Shown here: positions 31,356-32,388 of the stretch, in pieces
How positions within the stretch are numbered: the stretch's first letter is position 1
How the letters are laid out: every line of letters starts with the position of its first letter
DNA from: Rhodothermus marinus
GTDB taxonomy: Bacteria; Bacteroidota; Rhodothermia; Rhodothermales; Rhodothermaceae
DNA: 64,000 nucleotides
Reading direction: 5' to 3'
NCBI RefSeq assembly: GCF_009936275.1
Contig: NZ_AP019797.1
Location: 425,501-489,500, forward strand
Program-made: the position numbers and the translations under genes
The notes under the pieces: generated by a model
Database searches by the model: none
What the model saw: only the letters and a program-made list of their open reading frames with translations
Told to the model about the DNA's origin: nothing

Positions 31356-31364
31356 AATCCGTTA

Positions 31365-31393
31365 TTGACCTTCGCCTCCAGGTCCCGTATTAT
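31365..31393 (+). promoter_or_regulatory. Sigma70-like promoter of the recombinase-like gene
   Basis: TTGACC (31365-31370), a 17-base spacer and TATTAT (31388-31393) make a near-consensus housekeeping promoter. It lies 32 bases before the recombinase-like gene. Confidence 0.45.
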
Positions 31394-31425
31394 TACGGAC
31401 ACCTACGAACCAGGCGGAACGGATC

Positions 31426-32388
31426 ATGGCCGAACGGGAGGCGAAGGACGGGCGCGCCGAGGTGGGATTGAAGCTGACGCTGAACGAGCTGCAACGGCGC
31501 CTTCGGGACTTTCAGCAGGAGTATCTGAAAAACAAAAGCCCGGAGACGGTCGGCACCTACCGGCGGGCGCTGCATGAATTCGAGCGTTGGTTTGCGACGC
31601 AGCGAGGGCAGTTTCGCTTTCGGGTGGCCGATGTGCAGCGCTACAAGCAGTACCTGATGCGTGAGAAGAAGCTGCATCAGGTGTCGGTTTCCACCTATCT
31701 GACGGCGCTACGCCGGTTCTGCCAGTACCTGGTGGACATCGGGCTGCTTTCGGAAAATCCGGCCCGCACGGTCAAGGGCAATCGGCGACCGTCGAGCCAT
31801 TCCCGTTCGGTGCTCACGCGTGTGGAGATCGAACAACTGCTGGCCGTGCTGGATCAGGATACCTCGCAGATTGGCCTGCGCGATCGGGCCATCGTGCACA
31901 TGATGTTGTTTGCGGGATTGAGTGAGGTGGAGATCGTGCGGGCCGACGTGCGCGACCTGGACCAGACGCTGCTGGGCTGGTACCTGCGCGTGCAGGGCAA
32001 GGGGCATACGGCCAAAGACCAGCAGGTGCCGCTGGATCCGCCCGTGGTCGAGGCGCTGCAGGCCTATCTGAACACGCGCGTGCCGCTGCATCCGAGCGAG
32101 CCGCTTTTCGTGTCGCACGGGCATCGCTCCGAGGGGCAGCGACTCAACACCCGCTCGGTGCGCAGCCGCATCAAGCAGCACCTGGAGGCAGCCGGCATCA
32201 CGCGACGCGGCGTAACGCCGCATAGCCTGACGCACACGGCTGCGCTGATCTGGCTCAATCAGGGCATGTCGATCGAAGAAGTGCAGCGCCGCATGCGCCA
32301 CGGCACGCTGGAAACCACGATGATCTACTACCGCAAGCAGGGCCTGCTCAACCGGGATCCGGAAGAGCTGAAGCGCCTGCTGGGTTAA
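31426..32388 (+). CDS. Tyrosine-recombinase-like protein lacking both catalytic arginines
   Basis: A 320-residue protein with XerC/XerD architecture: SAM-like core-binding domain (about residues 30-125) and catalytic domain (about 130-315). Lys192 (QGKGHTAK), His266, His270, His292 (RHGTLETT) and the nucleophile Tyr301 (MIYY) are kept. Where Xer proteins have GLRxSE and HxLRH, this one reads GLSEVE (Ser166) and HSLTH (Thr269), so both active-site arginines are missing. It may bind DNA without normal strand transfer. No attachment sites or mobile genes surround it; an own promoter precedes it. Confidence 0.8.
   Translation: MAEREAKDGRAEVGLKLTLNELQRRLRDFQQEYLKNKSPETVGTYRRALHEFERWFATQRGQFRFRVADVQRYKQYLMREKKLHQVSVSTYLTALRRFCQYLVDIGLLSENPARTVKGNRRPSSHSRSVLTRVEIEQLLAVLDQDTSQIGLRDRAIVHMMLFAGLSEVEIVRADVRDLDQTLLGWYLRVQGKGHTAKDQQVPLDPPVVEALQAYLNTRVPLHPSEPLFVSHGHRSEGQRLNTRSVRSRIKQHLEAAGITRRGVTPHSLTHTAALIWLNQGMSIEEVQRRMRHGTLETTMIYYRKQGLLNRDPEELKRLLG

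Follow-up and report, generated by a model that had tools for sequence, protein, structure and literature searches.

The gene at 31426-32388 of the window (the whole stretch of 64,000 nucleotides analysed here, from Rhodothermus marinus) raises the question of what a protein with the fold of a tyrosine recombinase does once both arginines of its active site are gone. The start and stop of its open reading frame agree with the sequence-only reading of this DNA, and the frame codes for 320 amino acids, arranged as follows:

31426..32388, + strand: coding sequence of the 320-aa catalytically dead tyrosine-recombinase-fold protein (open reading frame list, Pfam, AlphaFold2, structural matches)
31477..31755, + strand: core-binding (SAM-like) domain, about residues 18-110 (Pfam), with the family-specific invariant residues R47, T90/Y91 and R97
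31756..31809, + strand: interdomain linker, with the family-specific G118, R121, H125 and R127
31810..32340, + strand: catalytic-fold domain, residues 129-305 (Pfam)

The genome that carries the gene is a single contig of 3.43 Mb. The GC content of the frame is 63.4% vs 64.5% for the window (GC3 82%), in agreement with the intact frame and host-like GC proposed earlier. The protein has a pI of 10.2, and its nearest named relative comes from a Rhodothermus sp. MAG (97% identity). Pfam recognises Phage_integrase (2.9e-24) and Phage_int_SAM_1 (2.1e-11). In the AlphaFold2 model (mean pLDDT 85, pTM 0.67) the best structural matches are XerH, XerA and Cre; Int is among the matches too, as are the phage repressors MrpR/YopR and SroF. 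The core-binding and catalytic-fold domains of the tyrosine recombinase superfamily are thus both present.

The active site is another matter. Alignment with XerD, XerC, XerA and phage integrases places its residues at the following codons:

31921..31923, + strand: Ser166 (AGT), position of the first arginine (ArgI)
31999..32001, + strand: Lys192, catalytic lysine retained
32221..32223, + strand: His266, HisII retained; Phe or Tyr in Ignavibacteria and Kapabacteria
32230..32232, + strand: Thr269 (ACG), position of the second arginine (ArgII)
32299..32301, + strand: His292, HisIII/Trp position retained
32326..32328, + strand: Tyr301, nucleophile position; lost at least seven times on the orthologue tree

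Taken in order, the catalytic positions hold S166 K192 H266 T269 H270 H292 Y301, against R K H R H H Y in active enzymes. GLSE stands for GLR and HSLTHT for HxLRHT, so that serine takes the place of ArgI and threonine that of the arginine of the HxxR motif, while the catalytic lysine and tyrosine are both in place. Since conserved residues anchor the two motifs on both sides, a shifted alignment rescues neither arginine, and no reasonable one places Arg at 166 or 269; the central claim of the sequence-only reading, that Ser166 and Thr269 replace the arginines and Lys, His and Tyr are kept, is confirmed.

This state is not peculiar to the strain. Of 40 related genomes searched, the great majority carry an orthologue of 60-99% identity, to which family f15 adds more diverged ones; after a profile recheck of the genomes initially lacking one, only G021 (85% complete) and G027 remained without a clear orthologue. 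Nearly all sampled Rhodothermales have the gene. Position 269 is Thr in 35/35 close orthologues; at position 166, 31 of them have Ser, three have Gly and one has Ala. Pairwise dN/dS among seven Rhodothermus genomes is 0.03-0.08. Inactivation in this strain alone, with the arginines kept elsewhere, is therefore ruled out, and the earlier impression that the gene is not obviously decaying holds in view of these ratios, the order-wide conservation and the conserved gene order.

The usual upstream neighbour in Rhodothermales is odhB (2-oxo acid dehydrogenase E2), seen there at 48 loci, and downstream of the gene come a conserved lipoprotein/outer-membrane-like (PorV-like) gene and secA. In Ignavibacteria it is found upstream of leuS and downstream of SpoIIE-phosphatase, STAS and HATPase genes, and in the genus Rhodothermus it has been relocated to dusB-[gene]-methyltransferase-recO. 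The very diverged copies of f15 and f34 occupy the same two loci (odhB-secA type and leuS type) and are therefore orthologous despite their lost active site; the gene has descended vertically. Three f15 copies (L240-L242) stand at the odhB-secA locus, with L036-L038 as close relatives, and His292 has become Pro among their losses. One copy on a contig labelled Armatimonadetes (L145, JADZEY010000020.1) is closely related to the Chlorobiota copies and has neighbours as in L150; the contig is probably mislabelled or mis-binned, or else reflects a rare transfer.

At E<=1e-30 the family profile matches 84/394 genomes of the phylum. These belong essentially to Rhodothermales, to f16, which is a small sister family, and to lineages of the Ignavibacteria/Kapabacteria type; the family loci were gathered partly with patterns from the Rhodothermales alignment and are thus a biased sample. 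Nearly every member has Ser or Thr at the ArgI position. The remaining residues were lost differently from lineage to lineage: Rhodothermales members have Thr for ArgII and keep the histidines; those of Ignavibacteria and Kapabacteria keep ArgII and have Phe/Tyr for HisII and Leu/Ile for HisIII; f16 members have Val at the ArgII position; and f15 members have lost nearly all active-site residues. Lys192 and Tyr301 are retained in most family members. On an orthologue tree built without the active-site columns, the Tyr301 position requires at least seven changes, and over residues 20-295 nine orthologues without the tyrosine retain 60-64% identity to the window protein; the nucleophile is dispensable. 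The repeated loss of Tyr301 and the lineage-specific losses elsewhere in the active site make a catalytic role common to the whole family very unlikely, as judged from sequence comparison. The family represents a natural series of active-site dismantling, from ArgI to ArgII or both other histidines and then to Tyr, with the protein needed throughout. Other residues became invariant in the family, namely R47, T90/Y91, R97, G118, R121, H125, R127, R234, R243, R246, R289 and R291; most of them differ in XerC/D and, judging by how proteins of this family are generally built, likely lie at DNA-facing places.

The origin of the family lies beside integrases. On trees the dead family is a single clade, and its neighbours are phage and plasmid integrases with RKHRHY intact in 33/33, sampled with a bias, partly by the pattern QGKG[RH]xxKD, which does not require the arginines. 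Simple integrases with this pattern (e.g. Streptococcus thermophilus pSMQ-316) are its tree sisters, with 31-37% identity and a common hairpin motif, and differ from it in the complete active site; no viral or plasmid relative exceeds 37% identity to the window protein, and these relatives have intact sites. Nearest relatives of this kind point to an integrase that was domesticated, lost catalysis and passed to vertical chromosomal inheritance. One member of the phylum (L239) groups with the active integrases outside the dead family.

The window protein resembles XerC/XerD as a two-domain simple recombinase of about 300 aa, with 25% identity to XerD structures, but differs in lacking both arginines and in standing outside both clades. 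XerC, XerA and XerD rank best among the NCBIfam models, all far below cut-off (XerC 144.4 vs 335.15, XerA 137 bits vs 220, XerD 130.7 vs 329.6). Of the earlier label 'Xer-like', the recombinase fold stands and the Xer affiliation does not, as these cut-offs are failed and the family sits beside phage and plasmid integrases. Descent from XerC or XerD likewise found no support on the trees. A phage gene was considered too: PHROGs returned a generic integrase only, and the viral and plasmid relatives are distant, with intact sites. None of the PADLOC models for anti-phage defence matched.

We consider it quite probable that the protein is a chromosomal DNA-binding non-enzyme derived from a phage/plasmid-type integrase and acting as a regulator or an architectural factor. 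The ancestor would have been a simple tyrosine integrase, and catalysis would have been lost, beginning with ArgI, before the split between Rhodothermales, Ignavibacteria and Kapabacteria, with vertical descent afterwards. As the cutting residues went before the orders separated and the gene has yet been carefully kept, DNA binding is most likely its sole role. The core-binding and catalytic-fold domains would still clamp a specific DNA site without cutting it, with a dimer or a higher oligomer probably bound across two half-sites, and the output would be transcriptional regulation or DNA architecture. The new invariant basic residues and a pI near 10 fit a DNA grip that was retained and re-specified without the chemistry. 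Order-wide loss of the arginines, purifying selection, repeated Tyr loss and the precedent of MrpR all favour the putative DNA-binding architectural or regulatory protein already suggested by the sequence-only reading. What is puzzling for a pure DNA binder is the retention of Lys192 and Tyr301 in most of the aligned members, for which it would have no obvious need. In MrpR a change of the Tyr also reduced stability (PMC10516654), and a structural role for the retained tyrosine is therefore possible.

Among cases that have been tested, the closest is MrpR/YopR (PDB 8A0A, 8BPZ; PMC10516654), the master repressor of the SPbeta prophage in Bacillus, which shares the tyrosine-recombinase fold. It has V137/S138 for ArgI and V257 for ArgII, keeps Lys169 and Tyr304, performs no recombination and is a DNA-binding repressor (PMC10516654). 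Both proteins have thus exchanged the arginines for small residues and kept the lysine and tyrosine. However, MrpR belongs to a prophage and its operators are known, whereas the window gene is vertically inherited and its family sits at conserved chromosomal loci among housekeeping genes. TnsF of Tn6022-like transposons (PMC10293859) is likewise an inactivated tyrosine recombinase of active-relative origin that serves for DNA recognition, but it has N-terminal zinc fingers, a TniQ partner and a transposon home (PMC10293859); in the window protein Pfam detects only the core-binding and catalytic-fold domains, and its gene neighbours are dusB, a methyltransferase gene and recO. Tfp/GinC of strand-biased circularizing elements and GInts have the fold without the RHRY motif, with a DNA-binding-only role proposed (PMC10214605); these are mobile-element genes adjoining active integrases, in contrast to the present family, which stands alone among housekeeping genes. 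A dead tyrosine recombinase acting as a DNA binder is therefore a known kind, but MrpR, TnsF and Tfp/GinC serve phages and transposons, and this family is kept by the host. No papers on it were found in the open-access literature searched, and a vertically conserved host family of this depth appears undescribed. The set of conserved DNA-binding proteins in these bacteria would gain an uncharacterised family from it.

The proposal that the gene has its own promoter is supported by one element:

31365..31393, + strand: promoter-like element TTGACC-17 bp-TATTAT, with conservation across seven genomes of Rhodothermus

In these seven genomes the conserved letters (31359-31396) reach past the promoter hexamers, as CCGTTATTGAC and C[CT]GTATTATT, so that an operator may overlap the promoter. 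The upstream palindrome CCGTATTATTACGG was considered as a possible operator and rejected, because its right arm is not conserved within the genus. The search for a DNA-binding site of the protein, this palindrome included, found none.

Among the alternatives, the one that survives best, though we regard it as unlikely, is that the protein serves a Xer-type recombination complex as an accessory subunit without catalysis. It would occupy half the sites beside the recombinase XerR and determine the order or direction of events, with FtsK gamma activating the partner. The genome, a single contig, encodes only two tyrosine recombinases, the dead protein and an intact XerR, and two further single-contig Rhodothermales likewise have just these two. 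Canonical XerD above the NCBIfam cut-off occurs in 0/50 Rhodothermales vs 50/50 in the rest of the class, and 39/40 retain the gamma domain of FtsK (in the window genome at C1:2309980-2310162). However, the dead family co-occurs with intact XerC and XerD in f16 of the same class and in Ignavibacteria (f24, f40), and many Rhodothermales carry the dead protein without a close XerR; for these two reasons the accessory reading is kept minor. Moreover, XerR of Salinibacter itself is missing active-site residues, and no locus was seen at which the dead-family gene is shared with XerR or ftsK.

Quite unlikely, too, is the specific form in which the dead protein partners the sole active recombinase in FtsK-driven dimer resolution, a half-dead Xer machine in an order without XerC/XerD. 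That active enzyme, XerR, is the only intact tyrosine recombinase of the genome (C1:1603791-1604717, L039), carries RKHRHY, lies beside miaA and falls in a separate clade that, in our sample, does not extend beyond Rhodothermales. The dif-like sequence ATAAN6TTATGTNAA was present in 5/5 XerCD genomes tested and was not found in the window genome (G000), G012 or G029. With XerD below the cut-off, the dif-like site not found and FtsK gamma kept, either another way of dimer resolution exists or it was lost. The loss of XerC/XerD across an order that keeps FtsK gamma makes chromosome dimer resolution here a testable question.

In two genomes of the Salinibacter family (G018, G028) an XerR relative (L228, L193) without Lys, His and Tyr (REDRRFV, RGDRRYI) adjoins a second recombinase gene, and an XerR-like gene at G307:C44 also adjoins another recombinase. 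These pairs are possible two-subunit recombinases with one dead partner.

The second proposal of the sequence-only reading, a working recombinase of altered mechanism in which other residues substitute for both arginines, fares worse and seems highly improbable. R. marinus-type sequences still have Lys, both His and Tyr, and the family-specific R289 and R291, candidate substitutes, adjoin His292. The case of one arginine in the CTnDOT integrase invites comparison, as IntCTnDOT members have ArgI in one of two places (PMC8138268). On the other hand, Tyr301 was repeatedly lost among otherwise conserved orthologues, sister lineages lost both other histidines, and the f15 copies, still at the same locus, have hardly any of the active-site residues left. 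The candidate substitute arginines are not conserved family-wide; R291 also occurs in intact XerR and is His in f16. We know of no active precedent for the simultaneous loss of both arginines.

Finally, a decaying, functionless recombinase gene would account for the absent active-site residues and has virtually no chance of being correct, refuted for the family as it is by the low dN/dS, the order-wide conservation and the kept gene order. Annotation pipelines will label genes of this family as integrases.
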